Source of the DNA: a virus
DNA length: 64,000 nucleotides
Virus record (IMG/VR): IMGVR_UViG_3300001450_000001
Coordinates: 81,442 to 145,441 of that record
Direction: 5' to 3' (one strand)
Below the pieces are notes generated by a model. It was not told the DNA's origin. It worked only from the letters and a program-made list of their open reading frames with translations, and did not search any database. Below are positions 10,122 through 63,380 of the stretch, piece by piece. Made by a program: the position numbers and the translations under genes. Positions within the stretch are counted from its first letter, which is position 1; every line of letters begins with the position of its first letter.

Positions 10122-10472
10122 ATGGCAAATAAAAGATATAAAAATACAAGTCAAGTTTCAGGCAAAAGCAAATTTGAAACAACACACTTTCAGTCTATAC
10201 CACCTGGTAGTAATGATCTATATATAATAGCAAAAAAGTATGATAGATTAGATCTATTAGCACATAAGTATTATGGTGATAGAAATCTTTGGTGGATAAT
10301 TGCAGTATCAAATGAGATGGTTAATGGCTCAGTAGTAGTACCTACTGGTAAAAGAATAAGAATTCCAGCATCAGGTATAGGATTTATGGATTCTATAGAT
10401 AAGTCTACATTTGACATAAAGTCTGAGAGTGGAGGCGGTTTGCCTGATGGACTTGGAGGAGGAGCTTATTAA
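10122..10472 (+). CDS. LysM-domain baseplate protein (gp53-like)
   Basis: 116 residues. Residues 30-85 form a LysM-like unit: 'LDLLAHKYYGDRNLWWIIAV', then 'VPTGKRIRIPA'. In T4-type phages gp53, a baseplate wedge protein, carries a LysM-type fold, and P2 gpX plays a comparable hub role. The C-terminus is Gly-rich. It starts two bases after the preceding stop and ends in a TAATG overlap with the large hub gene, placing it in the baseplate block. The domain is clear; wedge versus hub placement is not. Confidence 0.75.
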   Translation: MANKRYKNTSQVSGKSKFETTHFQSIPPGSNDLYIIAKKYDRLDLLAHKYYGDRNLWWIIAVSNEMVNGSVVVPTGKRIRIPASGIGFMDSIDKSTFDIKSESGGGLPDGLGGGAY

Positions 10473-32242: not shown

Positions 32243-32243
32243 T

Positions 32244-37000: not shown

Positions 37001-37293
37001 TGTTTACACCAACAGGAGGAAATGTAGTATTAAAAGGATTAGAACCAGATGAAATGACATCAGGTGGAGTAATTATGCCAGAAGTTGATGCAGAAGTATC
37101 ACTTAAAGGCGAAGTATTAGCAGTAGGTCCCGGCCCACTACTAAATACTGGAAAAAGAGGTCATATGCAATGTAAGGTAGGCGATGTAGTATACTATCCA
37201 AAATTTTCAGCTAAAAGACTTGAAGTTAATAGAGAAGAGTTCATCGTATGTAGAGAAGATGAAATTTTAACAATTTATAAGGAGACAAAATAA
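37000..37293 (+). CDS. groES: Co-chaperonin GroES
   Basis: 97 residues, the usual GroES length. 'FTPTGGNVVLKGLEPDEMTS' with 'GGVIMPE' covers the start and the mobile loop region. 'KGEVLAVGPGPLLNTGKRG', 'CKVGDVVYYPKFSAKRLEV' and 'IVCREDEILTIYKE' are standard GroES segments. It caps the GroEL ring. The stop codon overlaps the groEL start (TAATG), so the two are translationally coupled. AAGGAGGCAATA precedes the start. Confidence 0.93.
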   Translation: MFTPTGGNVVLKGLEPDEMTSGGVIMPEVDAEVSLKGEVLAVGPGPLLNTGKRGHMQCKVGDVVYYPKFSAKRLEVNREEFIVCREDEILTIYKETK

Positions 37294-45914: not shown

Positions 45915-46375
45915 TGGATAATAGCAAAGCTGAATGGGTAGTAAGCCCAATAACAAATGAAAAGCATGTAATACAAGAGCTTGATGATAGACATGGAGTG
46001 TCAAAGATGTGTGTTGGAAGTGGATTCTATACTAATGAAAATCCGTTAAATTATAAAAAGAACCCAGACTTTGATATAGAAAAGTATGAATCGAATATGC
46101 CAAAATTAATGAAAGACCTAAGATTTGATGATGGAGAATCATATTGGTACCCAACAACTATACAGACTGAGAGAGGAATGATATATCCTGAGGGGCGCAA
46201 GGATAAATGGGGCTGGTCATACACACCAATTGTTCAGCTAACAGAAGATGAGGCTTCTAGTGCTTCGCAGGGCACACTAAAGTATGAGTCTAAATTAGAA
46301 ACAAAAGACACTAAGCACTTTAAGAGATTCTTAGAGGCATGTAATGAAATGGGCGAGATAAAATTCGATGGCTAA
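45914..46375 (+). CDS. Hypothetical protein in glycan cluster
   Basis: 153 residues, TAATG-coupled to the preceding transferase. It contains 'GVSKMCVGSGFYTNENPLNY' and 'DGESYWYPTTIQTERGMIYP', Trp/Tyr-rich. No family recognised. The short acidic C-terminus overlaps the next gene. It may be a virion protein or part of the glycan pathway. Confidence 0.6.
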   Translation: MDNSKAEWVVSPITNEKHVIQELDDRHGVSKMCVGSGFYTNENPLNYKKNPDFDIEKYESNMPKLMKDLRFDDGESYWYPTTIQTERGMIYPEGRKDKWGWSYTPIVQLTEDEASSASQGTLKYESKLETKDTKHFKRFLEACNEMGEIKFDG

Positions 46376-46850
46376 GCAAAAGGTAGAAGGTAGATTAAAT
46401 GAGCACTTGATTAGAGTGCAAGGTAAGTACCCAACAAATATAGCTAAACTAGAAAGAGGTATGTTAATTGAGTGTAGATACAAAGGGCTAGAAGGTGCAA
46501 GTAAGAGGCAAGTATTAGTTGTACTAAATGCAGAACACCTAAAGAAGACTCATTGTATGTCATTGGATAAAGTATCATATAGTGCATTTAATAGATGGGT
46601 TGAATCTGTAGGTTTAAGAACACTAGATACAACACCTGAAATATTGGCATTAGATATACCAGTTCTTCAAATGCAGGCAGACCCAAGAAACTTCTATAAA
46701 ACAGTATTAAAGGCAACATATAAGACAGATACTTTTGGTTTAGGTGATAGCTATAGAACTTTTTTCACTGCTAAGCTAAGAGGAATACAATTATTAGATT
46801 ATAAATTTAACAGTAAGGTAGAAAAATTATGGCGAAAGAACTCACTATAG
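46368..46850 (+). CDS. Hypothetical protein
   Basis: 160 residues. Pattern: 'IAKLERGMLIECRYKG', 'RQVLVVLNAEHLKKTHCMSL', 'FFTAKLRGIQLLDYKFNSKV'. The 'LVVLN...K.HCMSLD' arrangement recalls proteins of unknown role in many T4-like phages. It overlaps neighbours on both sides, implying translation coupled with the glycan genes. Confidence 0.6.
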   Translation: MAKQKVEGRLNEHLIRVQGKYPTNIAKLERGMLIECRYKGLEGASKRQVLVVLNAEHLKKTHCMSLDKVSYSAFNRWVESVGLRTLDTTPEILALDIPVLQMQADPRNFYKTVLKATYKTDTFGLGDSYRTFFTAKLRGIQLLDYKFNSKVEKLWRKNSL

Positions 46851-47479
46851 GATACATGATTCTCTGTAAGAATGAAGATGAATCACTTAATCAATTATTA
46901 AAACAAATTACTGAATTAAAAGGCACTAGTGACAAAGTTTATATTGTTCGAGACTCAAACGGATCAAATAATAAGACAAAATATATAATTGAAAGCTATA
47001 AGGATGATATTATATCATTTGAAAAGCCTGTAGATAAGGCAATTCATGACCAAAAAAATTGGCTGGCAACACAAGCAGATACAGACTATTTATTCTATTT
47101 AGATGCAGATGAATTGCTTGATGAAAGATTCTATATGATAGTTCATAATCTAATAAGTACAAATGATGTTGATGTATTCTTTCTACCAAGAACTAATATT
47201 GTAGAAGGGCTTACAGAGGAATATAGAGCTTCAAGAGGTTGGGTCTTAGATGAAAAAGGTAGAGTTAACTGGCCAGATGTTCAGGACAGGCTATTCAGAA
47301 ATAATAAAGGTATTCATTTTAATCCAATACCTCACGGAAGACTAATAGGGCAAGACACATTCGCAGCACTACCAGAGGAAGAGCTTTATGCAATATATCA
47401 TAGAAAAACACTGGAAAAACAAGTTAGTGATAATGACTGGCATGATAATAAAGAAAGAGAAATGGGATTAAGGAAATGA
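46829..47479 (+). CDS. Glycosyltransferase, GT2-like (GT-A fold)
   Basis: 216 residues. 'TIGYMILCKNEDESLNQLLK' is the GT2 start. 'YLFYLDADELLDERFYMIV' carries the DxD-type metal/UDP motif near residue 90, and 'NWPDVQDRLFRNNKGIHFNP' fits the acceptor region of GT2 enzymes of the LPS type. ATG 46829 lies within the preceding gene's end. Ends in an ATGA overlap with the next transferase. Confidence 0.8.
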   Translation: MAKELTIGYMILCKNEDESLNQLLKQITELKGTSDKVYIVRDSNGSNNKTKYIIESYKDDIISFEKPVDKAIHDQKNWLATQADTDYLFYLDADELLDERFYMIVHNLISTNDVDVFFLPRTNIVEGLTEEYRASRGWVLDEKGRVNWPDVQDRLFRNNKGIHFNPIPHGRLIGQDTFAALPEEELYAIYHRKTLEKQVSDNDWHDNKEREMGLRK

Positions 47480-48786
47480 AGACACCAATTATAATGTGTA
47501 ATTGGAAGAGGACAGATAATATACCTAGAACTCTTGCAATGCTTGAAGGCCAAACAACTCATGAATTCGATTTGTATATTTGGAATAATAATGCTGATGA
47601 TAGTAAAAAACTAGATGAAATAGTGTCAATGTATAAGCTATCATATAATATTGAAGTTCACCATAGCAAAGATAATGTAGGAGGAATAGGAAGATTCTAT
47701 TTTGCAAAGAATCTAACAGATCAATACGAAGGCCCATGTATTTTTATAGATGATGATGTACAATTTGGTGAAGATATGGTAGAGACATTCTTATCAGAAT
47801 ATAGACCAGATACAATATTTTCATTTTATGCACATAGAATAAAAGAGTCCTACTGGGATAAGGAAGGAGTTGATACTCCTGGAGAGGATGTCGATTACTG
47901 TGGTACTGGTGGTATGATATTACCAATTCGTGTGTTTACCGAAAACGAACTTTTTGATAATTTGCCAGATAAGTACAAATTTATTGAAGATTTATGGTTA
48001 AGCTATTACTTTAAGCACAAATATAAAGGCAACCTTAAGAGATCAAATAATAATTTCATTCTTGAGTCTGATCAGCATGATCAAGGTAGACAGACTGAGT
48101 TAAGATCCAAGAAGGATGAGCTGCTTGACTTTTGTAAAGATACATTCATAAGAAATGAGACAAAACTTTCAAAAAAGTTTAATAACATGTTTGAAGAGAC
48201 CTATGTTGTAAATATGAAGTCAAGACCAGATAGAATGATAAGGTCAAAGTCTAGGTTAAAAGATCTTTCTATAAACTTTAGAAGGTTTGAGGCAGTAGAT
48301 GGCAATACACAAGCTAGACACCAAAACTTAAACTCAGGAGAGGTAGGATGCTATCTATCACATTTTAATATAATATCAGAGGCAAAGGCAAGGGGCCTAA
48401 AGTCAATTCTTATATTGGAAGATGATGTAGTATTTATTGACAATATGCTTGAAAAGTTTTTTGAAGGCTATAGTAATATACCAGAAGATTGGGAGATGAT
48501 CTATTTAGGTTGCAATCACAAAAAGCCATATACAAGAGTAAATGACAAAATAGTAAAATGTAATTTTGCATATACAACATCAGCTTATATTATAAAAGAT
48601 ACCGCCTACGACAAGCTACTTGAAGCAACAAGATTCATTAACAGACAAATTGATGTACAATATGCAGAGATGCAAGCTGCTGGCCAGCTAAATGCATATG
48701 CTTTCCACCCTTGGCTAATGTATCAAGAGGATGGATGGAGTGATATACAACAAAGAAATGTAGACTACGGAATGATGAGGTTATAA
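47476..48786 (+). CDS. Bifunctional glycosyltransferase, GT2-like plus GT25-like
   Basis: 436 residues with two domains. Residues 1-230: 'TPIIMCNWKRTDNIPRTLAM' and 'GPCIFIDDDVQFGEDMVETF', a GT-A fold with a DDD metal motif. Residues from about 240: 'TYVVNMKSRPDRMIRSKSRL', 'SGEVGCYLSHFNIISEAKAR' and 'SILILEDDVVFIDNMLEKFF', the signature of LPS-type GT25 enzymes. Such fusions could add two sugars in sequence. It overlaps both neighbours by a few bases. Confidence 0.82.
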   Translation: MKTPIIMCNWKRTDNIPRTLAMLEGQTTHEFDLYIWNNNADDSKKLDEIVSMYKLSYNIEVHHSKDNVGGIGRFYFAKNLTDQYEGPCIFIDDDVQFGEDMVETFLSEYRPDTIFSFYAHRIKESYWDKEGVDTPGEDVDYCGTGGMILPIRVFTENELFDNLPDKYKFIEDLWLSYYFKHKYKGNLKRSNNNFILESDQHDQGRQTELRSKKDELLDFCKDTFIRNETKLSKKFNNMFEETYVVNMKSRPDRMIRSKSRLKDLSINFRRFEAVDGNTQARHQNLNSGEVGCYLSHFNIISEAKARGLKSILILEDDVVFIDNMLEKFFEGYSNIPEDWEMIYLGCNHKKPYTRVNDKIVKCNFAYTTSAYIIKDTAYDKLLEATRFINRQIDVQYAEMQAAGQLNAYAFHPWLMYQEDGWSDIQQRNVDYGMMRL

Positions 48787-49544
48787 TGGCAAGTGTAATT
48801 ATAAAAGATAGTATCAATAATAATGGCCTCGGAAATACACTATTTCAGTTAGCAGCTGCAAAGGCAGCATCTTTAAGGGATGGTGTAGAAATGACAAGCA
48901 CAATACCTCCAGGATATAATGAGTATAAAGATAATATACTTAGAAATATAAAGATATCAGAAAGTATACAAAACAATATCTACAAAGAGCAGTCATTTGA
49001 ATATAATGAAATACCGCCAAACGTCTCACTAGATGGATACTTTCAGTCAGAGCAATACTTTTATGACTATGGTGGCTTTATATATGATATGCTCTCACCA
49101 ACAAAAGAGATAGAAGATTATATAGATAATAAATACGGAAACATATTATTCAATAGTCTTGGGATACATATAAGAAGGGGTGATTATATAAAATACCCAA
49201 CAATGCATCCAGTATGTAATATGGAATACTACTCAAAGGCTATAGGCTTACTAGCAGATAAGAAGTTATACAGTAATTACATAATCTTTAGTGATGATAT
49301 CAACTGGTGTAAGGATAACTTTAGTAGTGAATTTAACTTTATTGAAGGCGAGAAGGACTATATTGATATGTATACAATGTCTATGTGTAGCGACAACGTT
49401 ATAGCAAATAGTACATTTAGTTGGTGGGCTGCTTGGCTAAATAGAAATAGTGACAAAAGAGTTGTTGCACCTATGACTTGGTTTGGAACAGATAAGAAAC
49501 TAAATACAAATGACTTAATACCAAAAGAATGGATAAAAATATGA
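48786..49544 (+). CDS. Alpha-1,2-fucosyltransferase-like (GT11)
   Basis: 252 residues. 'NNNGLGNTLFQLAAAKAAS' at the start and 'LGIHIRRGDYIKYPTMH' (HIRRGDY, 128-134) are the GT11 hallmarks, the latter binding GDP-fucose. 'ANSTFSWWAAWLN' near 200 is also conserved in the family. GDP-fucose can be supplied by Gmd and Fcl encoded at 52.9-55.9 kb. The acceptor is unknown. Confidence 0.88.
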   Translation: MASVIIKDSINNNGLGNTLFQLAAAKAASLRDGVEMTSTIPPGYNEYKDNILRNIKISESIQNNIYKEQSFEYNEIPPNVSLDGYFQSEQYFYDYGGFIYDMLSPTKEIEDYIDNKYGNILFNSLGIHIRRGDYIKYPTMHPVCNMEYYSKAIGLLADKKLYSNYIIFSDDINWCKDNFSSEFNFIEGEKDYIDMYTMSMCSDNVIANSTFSWWAAWLNRNSDKRVVAPMTWFGTDKKLNTNDLIPKEWIKI

Positions 49545-49563
49545 AATTAAAAAAGTTAAGTAA

Positions 49564-49585
49564 TTCACAAAAAATTGTTATATTA
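49564..49585 (+). promoter_or_regulatory. TTCACA...TTATATTA promoter-like element
   Basis: TTCACA, an A-run, then TTGTTATATTA, ending five bases before ATG 49591 without a ribosome binding site. It matches 28655-28676 at 21 of 22 positions and the end of the 67-bp element at 30888 at 20 of 22. It opens a new unit inside the glycan cluster. Confidence 0.6.
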
Positions 49586-49590
49586 TACAT

Positions 49591-50211
49591 ATGAAAAACT
49601 TTGACAAAAACATAACACAATTAGTTTCTTACCCAAGAACAGGAAGTCACTGGGTAAGAATGGTAATGGAAAAATATCTTGGAGAATATTGCTTACCAAC
49701 ATCATTTTACAACTCTAAACTTCATTGGGGCTTTCACTTACACGATAGAGAAGTAGGAAATGGAGATGAAGGCATCACTGAGGGATTTGACAGAGTAATC
49801 TATTTATATAGAAATCCAGTTGATGTTGTATATTCTCTGCTAAAGTATGAAAGCTGGGGAGATGATAGAAGAGGTGAGATAATAGAAGAGTATAAAATCC
49901 ATCTTAATAGATGGCTAAATAACAATAGTGATATTAAACACATCATGTTTATAAAGTACGAAGATATAAAAGCCGACCCAGTCTCTTCATTTACAAAGAT
50001 TCTTGAGTTTATAGGATTCCAAGATGTTAGAGAGGACACTCTTGCAAAAATATGTAATGAGTCAACTTTAAAGAACCTAAAGCAGTCTATAGGTGATGAT
50101 AGTGTGATAAATGAAAACCACTTTGGTGGAGATTATAAGACTGAGAGAGAGAGATTTAGAGATAATTATGGTAGTACTATATTAAAGGAGTTTGAGGGGT
50201 TATGGCTGTAA
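49591..50211 (+). CDS. PAPS-dependent sulfotransferase
   Basis: 206 residues. The 5'-phosphosulfate loop is 'VSYPRTGSHWVRMVME' (12-27), and the 3'-phosphate segment is 'YRNPVDVVYSLLKYE' (73-87). 'IKYEDIKADPVSSFTKILEF' follows, as in cytosolic-type and bacterial sulfotransferases. Together these identify PAPS binding. PAPS can come from the phage APS kinase at 41285. It lies between two fucosyltransferase genes, so a sulfated sugar is a reasonable inference. Confidence 0.88.
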   Translation: MKNFDKNITQLVSYPRTGSHWVRMVMEKYLGEYCLPTSFYNSKLHWGFHLHDREVGNGDEGITEGFDRVIYLYRNPVDVVYSLLKYESWGDDRRGEIIEEYKIHLNRWLNNNSDIKHIMFIKYEDIKADPVSSFTKILEFIGFQDVREDTLAKICNESTLKNLKQSIGDDSVINENHFGGDYKTERERFRDNYGSTILKEFEGLWL

Positions 50212-51110
50212 AAGTAAACATATGGGATACAAATAATGCTCACTCAAATAGCTGGAAAGAAGCTGGCCTTGAGTGTGGTATAAGAATAGATAGCTCACCA
50301 CTTATTACTGGACCAGAAAATGTTGAATGGGTTAGAGGACTAAAGTCATTTGAAGGCATAACAGTATTTACAGATAGCTATCTAGATAGAGAATTAATTT
50401 CATCTGTAAACTCAACAGTCAAGGTAGGCCTAGTAATGGAGCCAATTGCACACAAATACAAACCATATAATGACATTCAGGAAGTTGAAGATCTACTAGA
50501 CTTTATATTTACATTTAATAAGCAATTAATAGATAAGGATCCAAATAAATATAAATTTATTCCAGCAGATTGGGTCTGTATAGAGCAAAAATCTCATGGA
50601 TTAAATGTAAATGGCAAGACAAAGCTTGTATCAATGTTGTACTCTAACAAGGGAGGGATAGATAGGCCTATGAGGCATAATGTTGCTGATATGTTTTCTG
50701 ATAAAATAGATCTTTTTGGAGGACCTGCAGGTGAAGTTAAATTAAAATCATCAACACTAAATGACTATATGTTTTCAGTAGCTATTGAAAACTCAGTAGA
50801 CAACTTTTACTATACAGAAAAGATCATTGATTGTTTTATAACAGGTAACATTCCGATATATAGAGGTGCCAAGAATATATCTGAATTCTTTGACAAGAGA
50901 GGTATAATAGAATGGAATACACTTGATGAGTTAGACACAATATTAAATAGTATAACAAAACAGAAGTATTATGATATGCTACCATTTGCACAGAATAATT
51001 TTAATATGGCTAAAAAATATATTAGCTCAGATGATGTACTTCTTGAATTAATTTATAAGTGCATTAGTAATAAAGAATATGACACAATAGGAGAGTTTAG
51101 ATATGAATAG
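50202..51110 (+). CDS. Alpha-1,3-fucosyltransferase-like (GT10)
   Basis: 302 residues. 'YMFSVAIENSVDNFYYTEKI' followed by 'IDCFITGNIPIYRGAKNISE' (about 189-228) is the diagnostic GT10 donor-binding block of alpha-1,3/1,4-fucosyltransferases. The start overlaps the sulfotransferase by ten bases (GGGGTT before ATG). A second fucosyl linkage in addition to the GT11 enzyme is implied. Helicobacter and eukaryotic enzymes share this motif. Confidence 0.88.
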   Translation: MAVKVNIWDTNNAHSNSWKEAGLECGIRIDSSPLITGPENVEWVRGLKSFEGITVFTDSYLDRELISSVNSTVKVGLVMEPIAHKYKPYNDIQEVEDLLDFIFTFNKQLIDKDPNKYKFIPADWVCIEQKSHGLNVNGKTKLVSMLYSNKGGIDRPMRHNVADMFSDKIDLFGGPAGEVKLKSSTLNDYMFSVAIENSVDNFYYTEKIIDCFITGNIPIYRGAKNISEFFDKRGIIEWNTLDELDTILNSITKQKYYDMLPFAQNNFNMAKKYISSDDVLLELIYKCISNKEYDTIGEFRYE

Positions 51111-51678
51111 AAAATTAAATAAAGCAGAAGAGTTTGACTTTTGGTTTGAAAATCCAGAGTTTGATGATCACGATCAATTCGGTAGTAGCTATTATGTTAA
51201 TACATTTTATAATGATATAGTAGTTAATCTGGACGTCCCAGATGAAGGCTATATAGTTGTAATGGGAACAGCAAGGGCAGTTTCTTTTGATATATTATGT
51301 AAGCATTTTGGTGAGGATAGGTGTATAGGATTTGACTTATATAATCCCTCAGAACACCCAAGAGTTAAAATTAAAGACTGTATGGAGTTATCTGATATAG
51401 ATAATATTCCTATTGCTTTTGCACACAATGATATGGGTAGCTTACCTCACACACCTGAGCTAAAGATACATACTCATAGATGGCTTGCAAATAATATTAT
51501 TGAAGGAGGCTATTTATTAGGAAATAATAATCTTAATAGAGCTAAATTTGACTTTGAAGGCTTAATGCATAAAATGAATTATAAAAATACACAGTTTTCT
51601 GACCTAGATAATAGATTAATTAAGAATCTACCTGTCGAAAGAATAGAAGGCTATATGTTATCAAGGAGAGATAAATGA
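51103..51678 (+). CDS. Methyltransferase-like Rossmann protein
   Basis: 191 residues. 'YIVVMGTARAVSFDILCKHF' and 'CIGFDLYNP' resemble the SAM-binding motif I and the acidic end of strand 2 of class I methyltransferases, but the glycine signature is weak. The rest ('NNIIEGGYLLGNNNL') fits the fold. It overlaps both neighbours. Could methylate a sugar; alternatively a non-catalytic relative. Confidence 0.55.
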   Translation: MNRKLNKAEEFDFWFENPEFDDHDQFGSSYYVNTFYNDIVVNLDVPDEGYIVVMGTARAVSFDILCKHFGEDRCIGFDLYNPSEHPRVKIKDCMELSDIDNIPIAFAHNDMGSLPHTPELKIHTHRWLANNIIEGGYLLGNNNLNRAKFDFEGLMHKMNYKNTQFSDLDNRLIKNLPVERIEGYMLSRRDK

Positions 51679-52328
51679 CAAAAATTATAAAGTTTGACAA
51701 ACAAAAATACCCATTTGATAAGATGGTTGCTAATCTATATGATGTACCATTAAGCACATTAGATGATAATCTAGACCATACAGGTGGAGATCTAGGTGCA
51801 GATACAGACTCACAATGGCATACAAGATTCTATGACAGGCTAAGACAAGGCTGGCCTGAGTTTATCTCTTTATACGAAGCATTTATAAAAGATGAGCTGG
51901 CACCAATGTTTAAAGACGAGTCAGAAATAATCTACCAAAAAACTCCTTCATTTAGAGTTAATCAGCCAGGAGGTAAGGCTATATATGTGCCTCATTGTGA
52001 TGGAGATAAAGATCATAAGCACCCAGCTGGAGAGATAAATATATTAATGCCTTTAACAAGAATGTACGGAAACAATGGTATGTATGTTGAGTCAATGCCA
52101 GGTTTAGGTGACTATAACTCTCATGAGATGGAGTTTGGAGAAGTTATGATGTTCTATGGAAATAGACAAAGACACTTTAATAAATTTAACGACACAAATC
52201 AGACAAGGTGTAGCTTTGACTTTAGGATTGTACCTCCTTGTAACTATGATGCAGGATATGAATTAGAAAGTGCAACAATGAAAAATAAATTTATTGTAGG
52301 TGGATACTATAGTATAATGGACAAATAA
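51675..52328 (+). CDS. Probable 2-oxoglutarate/Fe(II)-dependent oxygenase
   Basis: 217 residues. 'YVPHCDGDKDHKHPAGEINI' gives a His-x-Asp, 'FYGNRQRHFNKFNDTNQTRC' a distal His, and a nearby Arg can bind 2-oxoglutarate. This is the facial triad of the double-stranded beta-helix oxygenases. 'GGKAIYVPHCD' and 'GEVMMFYGN' resemble antibiotic/sugar-modifying members (StrG type). A role in oxidising a sugar of the cluster is plausible. Confidence 0.65.
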   Translation: MTKIIKFDKQKYPFDKMVANLYDVPLSTLDDNLDHTGGDLGADTDSQWHTRFYDRLRQGWPEFISLYEAFIKDELAPMFKDESEIIYQKTPSFRVNQPGGKAIYVPHCDGDKDHKHPAGEINILMPLTRMYGNNGMYVESMPGLGDYNSHEMEFGEVMMFYGNRQRHFNKFNDTNQTRCSFDFRIVPPCNYDAGYELESATMKNKFIVGGYYSIMDK

Positions 52329-52329
52329 T

Positions 52330-52947
52330 ATGGAAGATCAATTTATTAAACAAGAACATGACAGATGGTTCAGAGATATGGGTGACACAACAAGGCTACT
52401 TAACTATAATCTTAATAGTGATTCTGTAGTGTTCGACTGTGGAGGCTATATGGGCAATTGGTCTAGCAACATATATAGTAAGTATGAGTGTAATATACAC
52501 ATATTCGAGCCACTAAAAGAATACCAAGGATATATTAAGCAGCTATTAGGTAATAATAAAAAAGTGCAAATTAATAAATTTGGAGTATCAAACCAAAATA
52601 GAGCTGCAAATATATACTTACAGAAGGATGGTTCATCGGAATACCTAGTTCAAGACAAAGATGCAGACTATGAAGCTGTAAAATTAAAGAGACTTTCTGA
52701 TCTAATAGACTCAAATATTGACCTAATAAAGATGAACATTGAAGGTTCAGAATATGAAGTAGTAATAGACTTAATAAATACTAAGAAGATAAAATTTATA
52801 GATAATTTACTTGTACAATTTCATTCTGAAAATGATGGCATAGAAGGTGCAACTAATATAAGAAAAGATATACATGATAGTCTGAAGAAGACTCATAAGC
52901 TATCTTGGAACTATGAATTTTGCTGGGAAAGCTGGGAGAGATTATGA
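52330..52947 (+). CDS. FkbM-family methyltransferase
   Basis: 205 residues. 'SVVFDCGGYMGNWSSNIYSK' is motif I, 'NIHIFEPLKEYQGYIKQLL' has the acidic residue, and 'DLIKMNIEGSEYEVVIDL' is the FkbM signature (D-x-x-K-x-D/N-x-E-G-x-E). FkbM enzymes O-methylate sugars or other hydroxyl groups. It is one of two possible methyltransferases in the glycan cluster. Ends in an ATGA overlap with fcl. Confidence 0.82.
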   Translation: MEDQFIKQEHDRWFRDMGDTTRLLNYNLNSDSVVFDCGGYMGNWSSNIYSKYECNIHIFEPLKEYQGYIKQLLGNNKKVQINKFGVSNQNRAANIYLQKDGSSEYLVQDKDADYEAVKLKRLSDLIDSNIDLIKMNIEGSEYEVVIDLINTKKIKFIDNLLVQFHSENDGIEGATNIRKDIHDSLKKTHKLSWNYEFCWESWERL

Positions 52948-53849
52948 AATTACTAGTTACAGGAGGCACAGGATTAGTTGGTTCTGCAATAAAAGACGCT
53001 AACTTTAGGCTAAATTCTGCAGATGCTGATCTAAGGTGTGCTGACCAATGCAATAATATATTTAATGAAAAGAAGCCAACACACGTAATCCACTGTGCAG
53101 CAAGAGTAGGAGGCTTAGGTGGTAATATGGATGCAAAAGGCGAGTTTTACTATGATAATATAATGATGAACACTAATGTTATAGAGGCCTGTAGAAAATA
53201 TAATGTAGAAAAGCTTATATGCTTTTTATCTACGTGTGTATTCCCAGATAATGCCACTTACCCACTAACAGAGGAAATGATCCATGAAGGAGAGCCACAT
53301 AGTTCAAATTTTGGCTATGCATATGCAAAGAGAATGGCAGATGTACAAATTAGGGCATATAAAGAGCAATATGGACTAAAATACTTATCTGTTATACCAT
53401 GTGGTGTCTATGGAATAAATGATAACTTTAATATAAAAAATGGCCATGTAATTCCTTCACTAATACATAAGTGTTATATAGCAAAACACACAAATACAGA
53501 CTTTGAGGTTTGGGGTTCTGGTGAGCCACTAAGAGAGTTTTTATACTCAAAAGACATAGGAAAGATATGTAATTATTTGATAGAAAATCACAATGGAACA
53601 GATCCTATAATATTAACTAGTGGCCTTGAGTATTCTATAAAGGATATAGTAAGTTTAATAGTTAATGCAATGGAGTTTAAGGGGAATGTAAAGTGGCTTG
53701 ATGATAAACCAGATGGCCAATACAGAAAGCCAGCATCAAATAAGAGACTATTATCAATAATTCCAGACCTTGAGTTTACACCGATTGAGGTAGGAATAAA
53801 AGAGACTGTAGAATGGTTTACAGAGAACTATGAAAGGGCAAGAAAATGA
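52944..53849 (+). CDS. fcl: GDP-L-fucose synthase
   Basis: 301 residues from ATG 52944 (ATGA overlap). 'LLVTGGTGLVGSAI' (3-16) binds NADPH. 'ICFLSTCVFPDNATYPLTEE' and 'NFGYAYAKRMADVQIRAYKE' with Tyr125-x3-Lys129 are the GDP-fucose synthase active-site blocks. 'VWGSGEPLREFLYSKDIGKI' is a strongly conserved Fcl segment. It epimerises and reduces GDP-4-keto-6-deoxymannose. Together with Gmd at 54951 it completes GDP-L-fucose synthesis. Confidence 0.9.
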   Translation: MKLLVTGGTGLVGSAIKDANFRLNSADADLRCADQCNNIFNEKKPTHVIHCAARVGGLGGNMDAKGEFYYDNIMMNTNVIEACRKYNVEKLICFLSTCVFPDNATYPLTEEMIHEGEPHSSNFGYAYAKRMADVQIRAYKEQYGLKYLSVIPCGVYGINDNFNIKNGHVIPSLIHKCYIAKHTNTDFEVWGSGEPLREFLYSKDIGKICNYLIENHNGTDPIILTSGLEYSIKDIVSLIVNAMEFKGNVKWLDDKPDGQYRKPASNKRLLSIIPDLEFTPIEVGIKETVEWFTENYERARK

Positions 53850-54256
53850 TAGAGAAAATTTATTCAAAAATAGATGGCAAATTATTACATATTGTCAACA
53901 GATTTGATTATATTAAAACAAGAACTGATATTGTGCCAGAAGAAAACTTTATACAATGTGCGACACTTAAAATGGAAAAGGGAAAGACATTCCCAGCACA
54001 TAAGCATATAGTAAAAGAAAGACACTATGACAAAAAGATAGCACAAGAATCTTGGGTAGTAATAAAAGGTAGTGTTAGGTGTAAGTTCTATGATGTTGAC
54101 AATACACTAATTGCAGAGCCAATACTTAAGCCTGGCGATGCTAGCTTTACACTATATGGTGGACACACATATGAGATCTTAGAAGAAGATACAATAGTAT
54201 ATGAATATAAAACTGGCCCATATGAAGGCCAAGAATTTGATAAGGAGTTATTATAA
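53846..54256 (+). CDS. Cupin-fold protein
   Basis: 136 residues. 'FPAHKHIVKERHYDKKIAQE', 'WVVIKGSVRCKFYDVDNTLI' and 'LKPGDASFTLYGGHTYEI' follow the cupin motif pattern, with His residues available for metal. Cupins of this sort include sugar epimerases/isomerases and binding proteins; in this cluster a sugar-modifying role is likely. No specific family. ATGA overlap with fcl. Confidence 0.65.
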   Translation: MIEKIYSKIDGKLLHIVNRFDYIKTRTDIVPEENFIQCATLKMEKGKTFPAHKHIVKERHYDKKIAQESWVVIKGSVRCKFYDVDNTLIAEPILKPGDASFTLYGGHTYEILEEDTIVYEYKTGPYEGQEFDKELL

Positions 54257-54961
54257 ATGGCAAATAAAAAATACACAGTCTGGCCAGTAGGCAAGCTACC
54301 TAAGGAGCTACAAAGGCCTGAGCTAGACCAACTAAGAGAGGCTGGTTATAAATGGGATGACCCAAGAGATGCAATAGATATGTTTGAGGAAAAGGTTGCA
54401 AAATTTGCAGGTAGTAAATATGCAGTTGCATTAGATACATGTTCACATGGCCTATTCTTGTGCATGAAATATATGAAATGTAAAGGTAAGATAACAATAC
54501 CTAAAAACACATATTGTTCACCTCCAATGCAAATTATACATGCAGGCTGTGAGGTTGAATTTGAAGACTTAGAATGGTCAGGTGTCTATCAATTTAAGCC
54601 ATATAATATATGGGATGGTGCAGTTAGGTGGCAAAAAGGGATGTATGTTGGTAATGATGCACTACAAGTTGTGTCATTCCAGATAAAGAAAAGGGTACCT
54701 ATAGGAAAAGGCGGAATAATAATGACAGACAGCAAAGAGGCGTATGAGTGGTTTAAGTATGCATCTTATGATGGAAGAGACCTAACAAAGCAATATATGG
54801 ATGATGACTTTAATATGATAGGTTGGCACTTTTATATGACACCAGAAGATGCTGCAAGAGGAATACTCTTAATGGACCAAATACCAGAGTGGAATGAAGA
54901 CACTGGAAACTCAAATACATACTCAGATATATCAAAAAAGGAGATCTTTAATGGAAAATAA
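54257..54961 (+). CDS. Short DegT/StrS-type PLP aminotransferase
   Basis: 234 residues, against about 370 for the family. N-terminal 'FEEKVAKFAGSKYAVALDTC', 'ITIPKNTYCSPPMQIIHAGC' and 'VVSFQIKKRVPIGKGGIIMT' (lysine for PLP) match the large domain of sugar aminotransferases. The C-terminal domain is missing; the frame ends in the gmd overlap without sign of a frameshift. A full enzyme would make GDP-perosamine from Gmd product; this short form may be a specialised or reduced enzyme. Confidence 0.75.
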   Translation: MANKKYTVWPVGKLPKELQRPELDQLREAGYKWDDPRDAIDMFEEKVAKFAGSKYAVALDTCSHGLFLCMKYMKCKGKITIPKNTYCSPPMQIIHAGCEVEFEDLEWSGVYQFKPYNIWDGAVRWQKGMYVGNDALQVVSFQIKKRVPIGKGGIIMTDSKEAYEWFKYASYDGRDLTKQYMDDDFNMIGWHFYMTPEDAARGILLMDQIPEWNEDTGNSNTYSDISKKEIFNGK

Positions 54962-55937
54962 AAAAGCATTTATAACAGGAATATCAGGCCAGGATGGAAG
55001 CTATCTTGCAGAATATTTAGTAGAATTAGGATATGAAGTTCATGGAATTGTTAGGAGAAATTCAACAGCTGAAAATCAACATAATAGAATTGATCACCTA
55101 GATGACAAGATTCATACATACTATGGAGATCTATTAGATCAAGGCGGAATTGAAAGACTATTGGACAAGATACAGCCAGATGAAATTTATAATATAGCAG
55201 CACAGTCACATGTAAGAATAAGCTTTGACATACCACAATTTACAGTTCAGACAAATGCGCTAGGTGTATTAAATATATTAGAGGCATATAGAAGATCTTG
55301 CCCTAAGGCTAAGTTCTATCAGGCAAGCTCATCTGAGATGTTTGGACTATCAGTTGATGATGACAAATTCCAAAGAGAAACAACACCAATGAATCCAGTG
55401 TCTCCTTATGGTTGTTCAAAGGTATTTGGCTATAATATAACAAGAAACTATAGAAGAGCATATAATCTTCATATATGTAATGGTATTCTTTTTAACCATG
55501 AATCTCCACGTAGAGGTAGTAATTTTGTAACAAATAAGGTAGCAAAAGCAGCTGCAAGGATAGCATTAGGACTACAAGATAAGCTTGAACTAGGTAATAT
55601 GGATTCATATAGAGACTGGGGGCATTCATATGACTACGTTAGAGCAATGCATCAAATAATGCAACATGCATGGCCAGAAGATTGGGTAGTATCAACAATG
55701 CAAACACATTCAGTTAGAGAAATGTGCCAAATAGTATTTGATAGGGTTGGCCTAAATATGTATGATCATGTAGTACAAAACTCAGCATATATGAGACCGG
55801 AAGAGCTACCATATCTTAGAGGTGACTCTACAAAAATTAGAAAAACTTTAGGATGGAAGCCAGAATATACTTTTGAAGCTATGATGGAAGAGATGGTTGA
55901 CCACTGGTTAGAATATTATAAGGCTGAAGCTAAATAG
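54951..55937 (+). CDS. gmd: GDP-mannose 4,6-dehydratase
   Basis: 328 residues from ATG 54951, eight bases after AAGGAG; longer frame starts lie in the preceding gene. 'AFITGISGQDGSYLAEYLVE' (GxxGQDG, family-specific), 'SSSEMFG' (126-132), 'SPYGCSK' (Tyr-x3-Lys, 151-157), 'ILFNHESPRRGSNFVTNKVA' and 'GDSTKIRKTLGWKPEYTFEA' are all Gmd hallmarks. It converts GDP-mannose to GDP-4-keto-6-deoxymannose, the substrate of Fcl. Confidence 0.95.
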   Translation: MENKKAFITGISGQDGSYLAEYLVELGYEVHGIVRRNSTAENQHNRIDHLDDKIHTYYGDLLDQGGIERLLDKIQPDEIYNIAAQSHVRISFDIPQFTVQTNALGVLNILEAYRRSCPKAKFYQASSSEMFGLSVDDDKFQRETTPMNPVSPYGCSKVFGYNITRNYRRAYNLHICNGILFNHESPRRGSNFVTNKVAKAAARIALGLQDKLELGNMDSYRDWGHSYDYVRAMHQIMQHAWPEDWVVSTMQTHSVREMCQIVFDRVGLNMYDHVVQNSAYMRPEELPYLRGDSTKIRKTLGWKPEYTFEAMMEEMVDHWLEYYKAEAK

Positions 55938-56371: not shown

Positions 56372-56408
56372 ACTGTTATTAAATTAAAGTTTTTACATGA
56401 GGAGAAAT

Positions 56409-57011
56409 ATGTATACAAGAAAACAAATTGAAGAAGCAGTAATCAACAAAGGATACAAGTGGTTTGAAAGTGGAGACTTAAATGTCAACATAGTAGGGGT
56501 AAGAAACGACGAAACAAAAGGTAAGGTAACAAATAAATTTGATGATCATATAACAATATCTTATAAGATAGATGGTGAATGGCAATTTGAATGTTATAAA
56601 TGTACAACAGATCCTGGAGATAATTGGATGGATAACCCAATGATGTCTAAAGGTTGTGCAATTCTAAAACCAGGACAATATAGAGGATCACATAAGCTTA
56701 GGCTACATGGTGGAAAGTATTTGGCTCTAGGCCAACAAAAACCAGTAACAGTATATAGAGATGCTAATCGTGATGATAACTATGATCTTGATGAGTCAAA
56801 AACTGACACAGGATTATTTGGAATCAATATACACAGAGCAACAGCATTGTCTGGTAAAACATCCACCTATGTAGACAAATGGTCTGCAGGTTGTCAAGTA
56901 ATAGCATCAAATGATGATTGGATGGAATTCTTAGGAATTTGTCAAGCAGCAAGAGAAAAGTGGAGTAATAACTTCACATATACGCTTATTAATAGTGGTG
57001 ATATAAAATAG
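56409..57011 (+). CDS. Endolysin-like protein with L,D-transpeptidase-like fold
   Basis: 200 residues from ATG 56409, set by GAGGAGAAAT; an upstream in-frame ATG at 56397 overlaps this ribosome site. The whole protein is one domain homologous to residues 975-1189 of the hub protein. 'LFGINIHRA' (136-144) and 'KWSAGCQV' (157-164, Cys162) form the His/Cys pair. 'QKPVTVYRDANRDDNYD' is also shared with the hub domain. L,D-transpeptidase-fold enzymes act on peptidoglycan peptides. Lysis is inferred from the neighbouring holin-like and lipoprotein genes. Confidence 0.7.
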   Translation: MYTRKQIEEAVINKGYKWFESGDLNVNIVGVRNDETKGKVTNKFDDHITISYKIDGEWQFECYKCTTDPGDNWMDNPMMSKGCAILKPGQYRGSHKLRLHGGKYLALGQQKPVTVYRDANRDDNYDLDESKTDTGLFGINIHRATALSGKTSTYVDKWSAGCQVIASNDDWMEFLGICQAAREKWSNNFTYTLINSGDIK

Positions 57012-58325: not shown

Positions 58326-58478
58326 ATGAAAATAAATTGGATAAACGGATTTGATGCCGGTAATAAAAAAGAAAAGTACTACCTAGAGTTTAGGATAGGT
58401 ACTTTTACAGTATTAGAAATTAAAATAGAAAAATCTAAGTTTAGATTTATGATATTAAATTTGGGGTTTGAAATATGA
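58326..58478 (+). CDS. Small protein, unknown
   Basis: 50 residues after a good AAAGGAGAATTGTT site, ending in an ATGA overlap with the T9SS-substrate gene. It reads 'WINGFDAGNKKEKYYLEFRI' then 'VLEIKIEKSKFRFMILNLGF', beta-rich and basic. No family recognised; coupled translation ties it to the secreted protein. Confidence 0.6.
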   Translation: MKINWINGFDAGNKKEKYYLEFRIGTFTVLEIKIEKSKFRFMILNLGFEI

Positions 58479-61402
58479 GAAAATTATTATTAGTATTGGC
58501 TTTATTGCCAACAATGTTATTAGCACAAAATAGTTGGATAAACATACAACTATTAACAGATAATTATCCATCAGAAACAAGCTGGAATATTACACCTCCA
58601 GGAGGTTCACCTATTATTATAGGAAATGATTCAATCACAGAAGCTAATTTTTTATATGATACAATTATTCCAATAGGAGGAGATATTGTTGTATCTATAT
58701 TTGATCAGTATGGTGATGGATTAGCTGCTTCGCAATGGGGTGGAACTGATGGATGGTTTTTAATTCAAAATGATTGTCAAGATACATTATTATATGTAGC
58801 TGGTAATTTTGGGCTATCATATATAGATACATTAACAATTGCACCTTGTGCACCACCTGCACCAGATGTGTTTGGATGTATAGATACAAATGCATTAAAC
58901 TATGACTCACTAGCAACTGCAGATGATGGTAGTTGTACATATCCTGCCTGTGGTGGGATTTTGTCGTCTAATGCATATCAAAATTGTTATCCAGGAGGAC
59001 AAGCCTTAATTGTATTTGAATGGACTACAGAAGATTATAATCCTTCTTGTGAAACAGTTCAGGTATGGTATACAAATGCAGAAGGTGTTGGACCATATCA
59101 ATACGGTGTACCAGCAAATGCAACTAATTTTGCAGTAAATGCAGGTAATGGCCAAATGCCACCTAATTGGAGTGTAGAACATTATTTACAAGTAGAGTTT
59201 GCAGATGGCACAATGTCTGATACTATTACTTACACACCTACTCCATGTATAGATGGTTGTACAGATCCTACTCAAATATCTTATAATCCTTGGGCAACAA
59301 ATGATGACGGAAGTTGTGCTGGTACAATATGTGATACAACAAATGAATACCAAATAACAATGGAAATTACATTAGATAACTGGCCAGGTGAAACATCATG
59401 GATAATGAATAGCTTAGGGGTTATTGACTCAGTACTTGTAGGAGAATATGACTTTAATGATATAGGACAGACATACACATATAATTTTTGTGTAGACCAA
59501 AATTCAGGGTTTGAATTAATAGTTAATGATGACTTTGGTGATGGAATGGCAGGTTCTACATCTGGTGGAACAATGGATGGTTCAATTGTTATTTACGATT
59601 GTACAGGTGACACTATTTGGTATATGGACAATCCAGGCTTTGGAAATACTTTATATTCAGGAGCACAAACAGCAACACCTTGCCCTACAATATCAGAAAT
59701 ACCTGGATGTACAGATGATGATTATGTAGAATTTAATCCCCAAGCAAATGTTGATGATGGATCTTGTACTAACCTACATATTTACGGATGTACTAACCCT
59801 AATGCATTTAACTATGACTCAACAGCTACTATGATGGACTTAATACCAGATTGTAATTACGAATTATGGATTGGAGATGCTGGAGGAGATGGCTGGGGTA
59901 ATTCATATATAGGTGTATATCAGAATGGTATTAATCTTGGAACTTATACATTAGGCCCAGGAAATTATCAAAATACATGGAATATAATTCTTGATCCAGG
60001 TGTACCAGTAGATGTATTCTATTTTGAAGTAGGTGGACCTCAACAACCACCACAAGAAGTACAATTTCAAACTTGGCATAATTCATTTAAGCTAACAAAT
60101 GCTAATGGTGTTGAGTTATTATATGAAGGACAAAATCCATTTGCAAATAACGGTCAAGGAGCACTTCAAGGATTTGATTCTCCATTCTTTACAAAATATA
60201 CAGCAATACCATTTTGTGGAACAACATGTATACCAACAGTGTTAGGATGTATGGATTCTACTGCATTTAATTATAACCCTAATGCTAATACAGATGATGG
60301 AAATTGTATTCCTGAGATATTAGGTTGTACTAATGATTTAGCATTTAATTACAATCCATTAGCTAATGTAGATGATAATAGCTGTGTACCAATTATTACA
60401 GGATGTACTGATACAATAGCAGATAACTATAATGCTTCTGCAAATACAGATGATGGATCTTGTTATTATATAGGTTGTACAGATATTACAGCTCTTAATT
60501 ATGACCCAACAGCAACAGTAAATAATGGGTGTATTTATCCAGTGTTAGGTTGTACAGACCCAACAGCATTTAACTATGATCCATTAGCTAATGTAGATGA
60601 TTCATCTTGTATACAAGTTGTAATTGGATGTATGGATGTAACGATGTTTAACTATGATCCACTAGCAAATACACCATCTGGTAACTGCATACCATTTATT
60701 TATGGATGTACAGATTCAACACAATTTAATTATGACCCACTAGCAAATACAGATAATGGAACATGTGAACCATTTGTCTATGGTTGTACAGATAATACAT
60801 CATTAAACTTTAATCCACTAGCAAATACATTAGATAATTCATGTTGTTATATAGCTGGATGTACTCAAGATTGGTCATTAAACTATGACCCAGATGCTTG
60901 TTATGATGATGGTAGTTGTATTGACATAGTGATAGGTTGTACAGATGTAAGTGCATGGAATTATGATCCATTAGCAAATGTATCAGACTCAACATCTTGC
61001 TTATATAATGCAGGATGCTATGGAGGACCAGGAATTCCTTATTGGTTAAATGATGGATGCTATGCTTGGGTAATTGATGTAGATGACTATTGTTGTACAA
61101 ATAGTTGGGATGCAAGTTGTCAATCAATGTATGACTATTGTCAATTAGGTTGGCCAGTAGGGATAGATGATATATCAGCACTAGGAATAGTAGTTTACCC
61201 AAATCCAACTAATAACATATTAAATATAGAAACAAGGCTTGATGTTAGGGTTGATTTATATGATATGATGGGTAGAACAATATTAAGTGAGGCAGGAAGT
61301 AATACAATAAGATTAAGCTTAGAGGGTGTTTCTCCAGGTACATATAATATGGTCATAACACATAAAGAAAATAGATACAGTAAGAGGATAATAAAACAAT
61401 GA
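58475..61402 (+). CDS. Secreted repeat protein with T9SS sorting domain
   Basis: 975 residues. Signal peptide: 'MRKLLLVLALLPTMLLAQ'. Two beta-domains (about 20-125 and 297-405) share 'SETSWNI'/'GETSWIM' and 'YGDGLA'/'FGDGMA' segments common in flavobacterial exported proteins; a third 'GGDGWG' domain lies near 470-580. Fourteen GC(T/M)D...NYDP...DDGSC units follow, ten in tandem (590-842). Residues about 905-975 are a type IX secretion sorting domain: 'VVYPNPTNNILNIE', 'VDLYDMMGRTIL', 'LEGVSPGTYNMVI' and 'YSKRIIKQ'. Known proteins of this type cross the outer membrane by T9SS and attach to the cell surface. Function in infection is unknown. Confidence 0.9.
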   Translation: MRKLLLVLALLPTMLLAQNSWINIQLLTDNYPSETSWNITPPGGSPIIIGNDSITEANFLYDTIIPIGGDIVVSIFDQYGDGLAASQWGGTDGWFLIQNDCQDTLLYVAGNFGLSYIDTLTIAPCAPPAPDVFGCIDTNALNYDSLATADDGSCTYPACGGILSSNAYQNCYPGGQALIVFEWTTEDYNPSCETVQVWYTNAEGVGPYQYGVPANATNFAVNAGNGQMPPNWSVEHYLQVEFADGTMSDTITYTPTPCIDGCTDPTQISYNPWATNDDGSCAGTICDTTNEYQITMEITLDNWPGETSWIMNSLGVIDSVLVGEYDFNDIGQTYTYNFCVDQNSGFELIVNDDFGDGMAGSTSGGTMDGSIVIYDCTGDTIWYMDNPGFGNTLYSGAQTATPCPTISEIPGCTDDDYVEFNPQANVDDGSCTNLHIYGCTNPNAFNYDSTATMMDLIPDCNYELWIGDAGGDGWGNSYIGVYQNGINLGTYTLGPGNYQNTWNIILDPGVPVDVFYFEVGGPQQPPQEVQFQTWHNSFKLTNANGVELLYEGQNPFANNGQGALQGFDSPFFTKYTAIPFCGTTCIPTVLGCMDSTAFNYNPNANTDDGNCIPEILGCTNDLAFNYNPLANVDDNSCVPIITGCTDTIADNYNASANTDDGSCYYIGCTDITALNYDPTATVNNGCIYPVLGCTDPTAFNYDPLANVDDSSCIQVVIGCMDVTMFNYDPLANTPSGNCIPFIYGCTDSTQFNYDPLANTDNGTCEPFVYGCTDNTSLNFNPLANTLDNSCCYIAGCTQDWSLNYDPDACYDDGSCIDIVIGCTDVSAWNYDPLANVSDSTSCLYNAGCYGGPGIPYWLNDGCYAWVIDVDDYCCTNSWDASCQSMYDYCQLGWPVGIDDISALGIVVYPNPTNNILNIETRLDVRVDLYDMMGRTILSEAGSNTIRLSLEGVSPGTYNMVITHKENRYSKRIIKQ
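60242..61000 (+). repeat. Tandem GCTD/NYDP/DDGSC protein repeats
   Basis: Ten tandem 23-27-residue units (residues 590-842 of the secreted protein) share Gly-Cys at the start, Asn-Tyr-(Asp/Asn)-Pro in the middle and Asp-Asp-Gly-Ser-Cys at the end. Each unit has two cysteines, suggesting one disulfide per unit, and the Asp clusters could bind calcium. Four more units occur upstream as spacers. Confidence 0.85.
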
Positions 61403-62472
61403 AAAAAATACTAGTAATTTTATTAGCAATATTAATTGCATCTTGTGCAGTCCCAAATAAGTGCTGTGCACAAGAGAAAAAAGTAGATCTTAAAAAGATA
61501 TTTAAGTTTGCAACATTTTATGGCGCAATCAACGGAGGAAATTCAGTTTCTGATGTAGATGTATTTTCAGTAAACAATGGATTGTCTACTCAAACAATTG
61601 CAACACCATTTGATTATTCAATTACATTCGGTGTAAGAAAGATTGCTAGGTTAGGATATGAAAATAGAGCAAATACATTCTATAATGGTACAGAAAATTC
61701 ATTTAGTGATGCTGCTACTATTGGAAAGTTAAAGGGGTTTGAGTTTTTATTCGAGGCAGACTACACAAGACAGCAAGGTACTAATTTCTTAAATCAAAAC
61801 CACTTTTTAAGATATGTTGCAAACGATTGGATTGCTAAGGTTGAATATTTACAAGATGGATTTGCAGACATAGAATACTTTGAAGCTTCCGAGAGATACA
61901 GATATAAACTAGGAAACAAGTTATCATTCAATGTAGGTGCAGTACAGAGATTGGCTGAACCTTATGGCTATGATCCTTTGGAAGAGTGGCTATTATCAAA
62001 TGGCAATCTACACTATACAGAATTAGCAATACAAGAGGGCTATAGTGTACAATTTGATGGTCAAGGTGGCGTTGCATATATTAATCAATCTGGTAACGAA
62101 GTAGCTACAAGCACAGAGGTCTGGGAAGCTGTTGTTATACCAACAATGTTGTCTGAGTATACCGAAAACAAAAGAAATGAATTAAAAAGTACACTTCAAC
62201 ACTCTGTTGTAATTGGATTTGACTTTTATCATTACACAAAGACATTTTGGGTACATTCATGGGGTAATTTAATGCCATATCACTATGATGATGGTGGTGA
62301 ATTTAGCTACCATGCTTATAATGGTGGCCAATGGATAGACTATTCAGGTGGTTTGATATTTGGATATAAGTTTGATAAGCACTTAGGTTGCTTTATAGAG
62401 GGTAAATATAATAAGTACTGGAACCGTAATTGGCATGACTTTAGTATAGGTGTTAATTACGTCATATTTTAG
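61399..62472 (+). CDS. Exported protein, probable outer-membrane beta-barrel
   Basis: 357 residues. The N-terminus has a signal sequence with a possible lipobox 'LIASC' at residue 16 and an alternative cleavage after 'CCAQ'. The mature part is rich in alternating aromatic strands ('FLFEADYTRQQGTNFL', 'GFDFYHYTKTFWVHSWG', 'GLIFGYKFDKHLGCFIEGKY') and ends 'DFSIGVNYVIF', a C-terminal Phe typical of barrels. It overlaps the T9SS substrate gene (ATGA). It might change surface receptors, for example to block superinfection; this is inference. Confidence 0.65.
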   Translation: MKKILVILLAILIASCAVPNKCCAQEKKVDLKKIFKFATFYGAINGGNSVSDVDVFSVNNGLSTQTIATPFDYSITFGVRKIARLGYENRANTFYNGTENSFSDAATIGKLKGFEFLFEADYTRQQGTNFLNQNHFLRYVANDWIAKVEYLQDGFADIEYFEASERYRYKLGNKLSFNVGAVQRLAEPYGYDPLEEWLLSNGNLHYTELAIQEGYSVQFDGQGGVAYINQSGNEVATSTEVWEAVVIPTMLSEYTENKRNELKSTLQHSVVIGFDFYHYTKTFWVHSWGNLMPYHYDDGGEFSYHAYNGGQWIDYSGGLIFGYKFDKHLGCFIEGKYNKYWNRNWHDFSIGVNYVIF

Positions 62473-62481
62473 GAGAATGAA

Positions 62482-62766
62482 ATGGCAAAAGAGTTAAACG
62501 AAGATACAGGCTTTAAGGTCAGTATAAAAACATTAATAGGAATAGCATTTGCAATTGCAACTGTTGTAGGTATGTGGTTTGCACTACAAGCGGATATTCA
62601 GGAAGCAAAAGAACTTCCGGTCCCACCACCACCAGATGTCACAAGAATGGAATTTGACATGAAAGATAAAAATATACGTCTAACTATCGAAAATACTGCA
62701 GATGATGTGGAAGAGTTAAAAGAAGACTTAGATAGAATAGAACAAAAAATAGACAGACTCAGATAG
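62482..62766 (+). CDS. Single-span membrane protein with coiled coil
   Basis: 94 residues. One hydrophobic span at about 16-36 ('TLIGIAFAIATVVGMWFAL'), a proline-rich hinge ('PVPPPPDV') and a C-terminal coiled coil ('VEELKEDLDRIEQKIDRL'). This layout suits an inner-membrane spanin or holin accessory; the lipoprotein at 58093 would be a possible partner. AGGAGAATGAA before the start. Confidence 0.65.
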   Translation: MAKELNEDTGFKVSIKTLIGIAFAIATVVGMWFALQADIQEAKELPVPPPPDVTRMEFDMKDKNIRLTIENTADDVEELKEDLDRIEQKIDRLR

Positions 62767-62775
62767 GAGATAGTT

Positions 62776-63135
62776 ATGAAAACAAAATTAGGTTATTTAC
62801 TAACAATATTATTTTTACTATGTATGTCTACAGCAATAGGCCAAACACTAAAACTAGGCAGTGATCTTACTATAGTACACTTTAATGCAGGATGGAACTC
62901 TGCAAATGATGTCGAATGGGTCTCAAGCCTAAATGATGCAAAATTAAAATCTTGTGACATTGCAACAGATACAAAGGCTCAAAATAAATACGAAATAGTA
63001 GTTGTACCAACAATTATTATATTTTATGAAGGTGAAGAAGTTAAAAGGTATCAAGCTGATATATCTTTTACAATGAAAGTAACAAAAGATGAGGTTCAGG
63101 AGGCAATAGACGAAATTTTAATGGACTCATTTTGA
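62776..63135 (+). CDS. Exported thioredoxin-fold protein without CxxC
   Basis: 119 residues. Signal peptide 'MKTKLGYLLTILFLLCMSTA' with cleavage near 'IGQ'. The fold pattern is thioredoxin: 'LTIVHFNAGWNSANDVEW' where active enzymes have W-C-x-x-C, and 'VVVPTIIIFYEGEEVKRY' with the cis-Pro strand. The two redox cysteines are replaced by Asn/Ala, so it is unlikely to be an oxidoreductase. It may be a binding or scaffold protein in the periplasm. Confidence 0.7.
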   Translation: MKTKLGYLLTILFLLCMSTAIGQTLKLGSDLTIVHFNAGWNSANDVEWVSSLNDAKLKSCDIATDTKAQNKYEIVVVPTIIIFYEGEEVKRYQADISFTMKVTKDEVQEAIDEILMDSF

Positions 63136-63164: not shown

Positions 63165-63380
63165 ATGTGGAATATATTCAAAGATGATAATAACTGGAAT
63201 GAAAAAGCCATTGTTGGCTTTATTGCGTTTATTATTATGTGTTTAATTATGATTGCTGATCTAGTAACTGGTTGGGTTGGAAAAGACCTAGTTATAAATG
63301 AGTTTGTTTATGATTCATTCGTATTAGTTGTTCTTGGTTGCTTTGGAATAGCAGGCTTGGAAAAGTTTGCAAAAAAATAG
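63165..63380 (+). CDS. Holin-like two-span membrane protein
   Basis: 71 residues. Two hydrophobic spans (about 15-36 and 48-66) are separated by a 'TGWVGKDLVINEF' turn; the tail is 'LEKFAKK'. Small two-span proteins with a basic end are typical holins (class II). Its place next to spanin-like and endolysin-like genes supports this, although several small membrane proteins in the region compete for the role. Confidence 0.6.
   Translation: MWNIFKDDNNWNEKAIVGFIAFIIMCLIMIADLVTGWVGKDLVINEFVYDSFVLVVLGCFGIAGLEKFAKK

Follow-up and report, generated by a model that had tools for sequence, protein, structure and literature searches.

We found that a marine phage encodes a 975-amino-acid protein that ends in a type A sorting domain of the bacterial type IX secretion system (T9SS), and its sequence indicates that this cargo protein is very likely displayed on the cell surface in a T9SS-dependent manner. 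The reading that we favor, and consider reasonably probable on the sequence evidence, is that the cargo borrows the export machinery of the host, becomes surface-displayed and works with an outer-membrane barrel, most likely so that late in infection the host surface is remodeled or shielded.

The window analyzed here is a stretch of 64,000 nt that corresponds to positions 81,442–145,441 of the IMG/VR record IMGVR_UViG_3300001450_000001, which is 145,441 bp long and of marine source; the cargo gene occupies window positions 58475–61402. This 145-kb fragment of a myovirus genome encodes a terminase, a major head protein, a tail sheath, a baseplate wedge protein, UvsX and a DNA polymerase, which bears out the placement of the gene within a phage genome by an earlier, sequence-only reading. 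We rejected the possibility that a host gene had been trapped in a phage contig, as the gene and identical phage neighbors recur in more than 60 viral contigs. Further genes on the record encode a DnaB-like helicase, a ribonucleotide reductase, a GroEL chaperonin (window positions 37293–38951; phrog_5725, E 7e-158) and a long block of glycosyltransferases and nucleotide-sugar epimerases (43243–55937), which lies just upstream of the cassette described below and suggests phage-driven modification of glycans or surface polysaccharides. The DNA polymerase gene is apparently in two pieces (30959–34490), a pair of ORFs separated by a single base, which match consecutive parts of phrog_405. The features of the cargo gene are as follows.

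58475..61402, + strand: T9SS cargo protein, 975 aa, ATG start (ORF; PF18962 and TIGR04183 above cut-off; viral relatives)
58475..58528, + strand: predicted Sec signal peptide, residues 1–18 (conserved hydrophobic N-terminus; AlphaFold2 (AF2) helix 2–16)
58538..59689, + strand: two copies of a beta-domain (approximately residues 22–124 and 290–405) around an Ig/FnIII-like domain (sequence; AF2 strands)
60245..61000, + strand: main Cys-repeat block, GCTDxxAxNYDPxANxDDGSC, residues ~591–842
61193..61399, + strand: type A T9SS C-terminal sorting domain (CTD), residues 907–975 (profiles, fold match, dN/dS)

The sequence-only reading had assigned a signal peptide, tandem Cys repeats and a sorting domain to this one gene, and had named a profile search, structure prediction and a search of related phages as ways to check it. 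The profiles PF18962 (44.7 bits, curated cut-off 27; E 1.7e-11) and TIGR04183 (42.6 bits, curated cut-off 23) both matched residues 907–975 above their curated cut-offs, and the YPNP, LYDMMGR and GxY motifs as well as the K-rich end are all present in the cargo C-terminus. When the whole 145,441-bp record was searched with TIGR04183, the cargo C-terminus was the sole match (E 1.6e-13); a single match of this kind is not due to chance. The type B sorting domain TIGR04131 gave no match to the window cargo in the NCBIfam search. An AlphaFold2 model of the cargo, for which 37 window and viral sequences served as input and which reached a modest pLDDT of 71, predicts a beta-sandwich CTD fold that superimposes on the solved CTD of Tannerella mirolase (8qb1) with an rmsd of 2.0 Å over 88 columns (TM 0.72, E 4.4e-4). 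The cargo family profile also matches solved T9SS CTDs, including 8glk/8glj, and the remaining whole-chain Foldseek matches were to long beta-domain proteins at a TM of about 0.1, which carries little meaning. The median pairwise dN/dS of the CTD was 0.23 over 205 non-independent pairs, indicating that the domain is maintained; it is under purifying selection.

Cargo relatives were found in at least 72 IMG/VR loci, most of them full length, although the counts of relatives are partly non-independent, since some loci of the two scans share a contig. The 85 complete relatives range in length from 626 to 1465 aa and in Cys-repeat copies from 7 to 33. A T9SS-type tail lies at the C-terminus of 126 of the 128 relatives whose C-terminus could be read, and TIGR04183 matched in 34 of 47 related virus records, exactly once in 33 of those. 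One homologue (L133:1802-3829) ends in ...IDIDEYC, before the C-terminal signal, possibly owing to a frameshift or an assembly error. None of the cultivated phages in INPHARED has the barrel gene or the thioredoxin-like gene of the cassette, and the CTD alone gave only weak matches there, to two huge metagenomic phages; a 642-kb metagenomic phage has a weak CTD-like match (LR756502.1 325937-326140, E 0.07). Beyond the repeats, the cargo search gave no match in the marine single-cell virus and cyanophages that were matched. Taken with the exchange of sorting domains described below, the profile matches, the predicted fold, the purifying selection and the more than 100 phage copies strongly support the export through the host T9SS that had been proposed. 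What the sequence-only reading overlooked was the set of conserved partner genes around the cargo, above all the barrel gene downstream.

56397..57011, + strand: endolysin-like protein of the neighboring lysis region (phrog_3000 E 1e-35; phrog_33083 endolysin E 7e-15)
58326..58478, + strand: 50-aa conserved protein (MINWINGFDAGNKKEKY...), immediately upstream of the cargo gene with a 4-bp overlap (conserved neighbor)
61399..62472, + strand: outer-membrane beta-barrel specific to phages, 357 aa, overlapping the cargo gene by 4 bp (AF2; Foldseek; IMG/VR distribution)
62482..62766, + strand: 94-aa protein with one TM segment and a coiled coil, MAKELNED family, i-spanin-like topology (conserved neighbor, n=62)
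62776..63135, + strand: thioredoxin-fold protein with a signal peptide and no CxxC (Pfam Thioredoxin E 2.9e-4, sub-threshold; conserved neighbor, n=52)
63165..63380, + strand: 71-aa two-TM protein, holin-like by topology only (conserved neighbor, n=33)

The barrel is better conserved than the cargo, with relatives 57–86% identical to the window copy. Its AF2 model (pLDDT 72.7) contains 14 long strands, and Foldseek against the PDB retrieved porins and other barrels, NanC being the best (E 2.8e-5); the viral protein A0A516LKJ4 matches it along its length. In GTDB genomes the barrel occurs at five loci only, all on phage-like contigs, and among 298 genomes of the candidate host order it occurs in one, on a phage contig already counted among these. 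As far as tested, the barrel is phage-specific. In Flavobacterium johnsoniae, type B cargo such as SprB requires a barrel encoded immediately downstream (PMC12618676), and PorP-like barrels have been proposed as anchors of type B cargo (PMC9143113). The phage barrel, directly downstream of the cargo, has this PorP/SprF-like gene placement. It matched neither TIGR03519 nor any other NCBIfam model, and no relevant Pfam match appeared in 43 members; hhalign gave probabilities of 14 against PorP/SprF and 21 against PorV, in a comparison where the positive control, PorP against PorV, was negative too. A PorP/SprF or PorV protein of recent host origin was set aside, as no family model matched. The phage pair may act like a cargo/barrel pair, with a barrel that has no detectable kinship to PorP/SprF. 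A more specific version, which we put forward only tentatively, is a dedicated cargo-plus-shuttle system in which the barrel would collect or anchor the type A cargo at the translocon, replacing PorV or acting beside it, with tails exchanged according to the signals of the host. If this were true, a branch of type IX secretion peculiar to the phage would rebuild the surface of the infected cell.

The clustered genes run from cargo to barrel to the 94-aa TM/coiled-coil protein to the thioredoxin-like protein, with the cargo first and lysis genes beside them; genes for an endolysin and a holin-like protein with two TM segments are often found close by. Of the 38 cases in which the cargo and barrel genes are adjacent, 30 have a 4-bp overlap. 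In some phages the order is altered (barrel-TM-thioredoxin-cargo), and the gene set remains together. An independent search seeded with the barrel retrieved at least 574 IMG/VR stretches, and among the 80 that were kept, nearly all with enough flanking sequence have the same partners. A tail-sheath match was present in 14 of 40 cassette-bearing records; the cassette probably spans several phage types, although many of the records are fragments. In a second phage group (L112, L114, L139 and others), a giant protein of ~2300 aa is encoded directly before the barrel gene, and no family was found for the one that was scanned. The idea that the thioredoxin-like protein catalyzes disulfide formation in the Cys repeats was rejected, since the sequences inspected have no CxxC. 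The phrog_3000 lysin-like domain of the endolysin-like gene (56397–57011) occurs a second time in the window, where it terminates a 1189-aa protein of the structural region (10472–14041).

This neighborhood gives rise to the main rival explanation, in which the cassette assists lysis or release: cargo and barrel would act on the outer membrane as infection ends, weakening or bridging it, and the TM/coiled-coil protein would be an i-spanin. Endolysin, holin-like and spanin-like genes adjoin the cassette in the window and in its relatives, the 94-aa protein has an i-spanin topology, and the location close to lysis genes is as consistent with lysis as with shielding. However, a large repeat protein of variable length is not a known lysis factor, one phage group has the cassette beside non-lysis genes, and a full set of lysis genes is present anyway, so that we regard a lysis accessory as unlikely.

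The N-terminus of the cargo, MRKLLLVLALLPTMLLAQ, is signal-peptide-like and forms a helix at residues 2–16 in the AF2 model, and a hydrophobic stretch is present at this position in all 87 cargo relatives that have an N-terminus. It contains 48 Cys residues and at least nine strict GCxD...C repeat units. Together with the profile matches, these features uphold the three-part architecture claimed for the gene. The body is phage-specific, in that bacterial genomes match only at the repeats (residues 584–850), one phage contig aside; unlike the body, the Cys repeats are widespread in Flavobacteriales, with 53 of 148 genomes carrying them. The abundance of same-type repeats in these genomes, and a copy number of 7–33 that varies as in adhesin stalks, would also suit a fitness cargo that serves particle attachment, aggregation or the capture of ions or nutrients during infection rather than the exclusion of phages. 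We think this improbable, as our Pfam search of the cargo found no enzymatic or nutrient-binding domain and slow traits would be of little benefit to a lytic-type phage.

Further support for the favored reading, export through the host T9SS, comes from the sorting tail. Among the 128 readable relatives, 109 end in a YPNP/HPNP-type CTD and 17 in a shorter tail with the pattern ITDLLGRxxK...LLFFIYDDGTVEKKIxKK, which is not recognized by NCBIfam models, TIGR04183 included. In the pairs L144/L145 and L116/L128 the body sequences are almost the same as far as the last Cys motif, after which the entire tail differs. When tail type was placed on a quick barrel tree, at least six changes were needed, four of them forced by starred branches. 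Within the order to which the Flavobacteriales bin G001 belongs, 54 of 148 genomes have the short tail as a recurrent C-terminus, with as many as 45 ORFs ending in it in a single genome, and several of these host ORFs have signal-peptide-like starts. The genomes tested from this order each contain 34–64 TIGR04183 domains, and T9SS genes were found in the tested genomes of the candidate order (SprA in 12/12, PorV in 6/6, PorP/SprF in 4/4). From these sequence patterns we infer that the short tail may serve T9SS as a second sorting signal. This candidate signal of ~40 aa, DLLGRxxK...LFYIYDDGTVEKKIIIE, ends the proteins of L144, L114, L128, L139 and L140 and those of the host loci L163–L174. A swap between two host C-terminal signals is expected if the domain is an export tag and is hard to explain for a part of the virion. 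A virion component such as a tail-fiber or adhesion protein, whose CTD would serve in assembly or in binding a receptor and not in export, is very improbable and its identity as a tail fiber disfavored, despite similar GCTD repeats in proteins of cyanophage S-CAM3 (one annotated as a virion structural protein) and weak Foldseek matches to phage tail tips at very low TM: the signal-peptide-like leader and the CTD are kept in nearly all relatives, the CTD is exchanged for another host C-terminal signal, and the gene sits apart from those for the tail, coupled to one for an outer-membrane barrel.

Related phage contigs have been binned with Flavobacteriales, Sphingobacteriales and Winogradskyella, and also with one Maricaulis and one Nitrosopelagicus, which are probably misbinned contigs. 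A single tRNA-Arg was the only tRNA found and is uninformative for the host. The host would most naturally be a T9SS-bearing marine member of the Flavobacteriales.

The CTD, its conservation, the operon coupling and the CTD swapping can be read directly from the DNA, and from them we infer export, the partnership with the barrel, the timing and the shielding. The cargo would be made in the infected cell and cross the inner membrane via Sec. Its type A CTD would then be recognized by the host T9SS, with the SprA translocon and the PorV shuttle; in F. johnsoniae, type A CTDs suffice for the export of a reporter and use PorV (PMC12618676). The cargo, predicted to be long, disulfide-rich and adhesin-like, would be exposed on the exterior of the infected cell, where it may cooperate with the phage barrel encoded just downstream, as in host cargo/barrel pairs. 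By analogy, the surface would be remodeled or shielded late in infection, such that further phages or the phage's own progeny would not adsorb. In Cellulophaga, phages are suspected of using the T9SS adhesins SprB and RemA as receptors (PMC13288928), and because T9SS adhesins are suspected in this role, a phage coat delivered via T9SS could plausibly stop adsorption.

The statement in the sequence-only reading that no phage-encoded T9SS cargo had been described was wrong, so that its claim to novelty falls while host T9SS export remains strongly supported. In 2019, T9SS sorting domains had been reported together with BACON ORFs in crAss-like contigs (PMC6949934); these contigs share phage-encoded sorting domains with our phages but differ in domains and neighborhood. 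Cryophage (2020) is a Bacteroidetes phage with three genes that encode type A T9SS sorting domains, for which hijacking and a superinfection idea had already been proposed (PMC7468147). There, the cargo consists of an endoglucanase, a GH39 protein and a PA14 protein in variable islands, and the accessible part of the report mentions no conserved barrel cassette (PMC7468147). Flavobacterium SprB/SprF-type pairs likewise consist of a secreted adhesin gene followed directly by an outer-membrane barrel gene (PMC12618676, PMC9143113), but they are host genes with a type B CTD and a PorP/SprF barrel (TIGR03519), whereas the phage cargo is type A and its barrel lacks TIGR03519. Host RemA-type adhesins resemble the cargo as large adhesins with a signal peptide and a type A CTD, but RemA is a host gliding adhesin with no phage cassette. 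Judged against the open-licence literature, two things appear to be new: the wide occurrence of a cargo/barrel cassette coupled as an operon, and the swapping of sorting tails.

Until now, the use of T9SS by phages had been mentioned in passing for one or two metagenomic phages, and here it is conserved in many ocean phages. The short candidate sorting signal is missed by current T9SS models. Phage hijacking of type IX secretion now becomes directly testable, and the cassette points to an unstudied way for phages to alter the surfaces of marine bacteria during infection.
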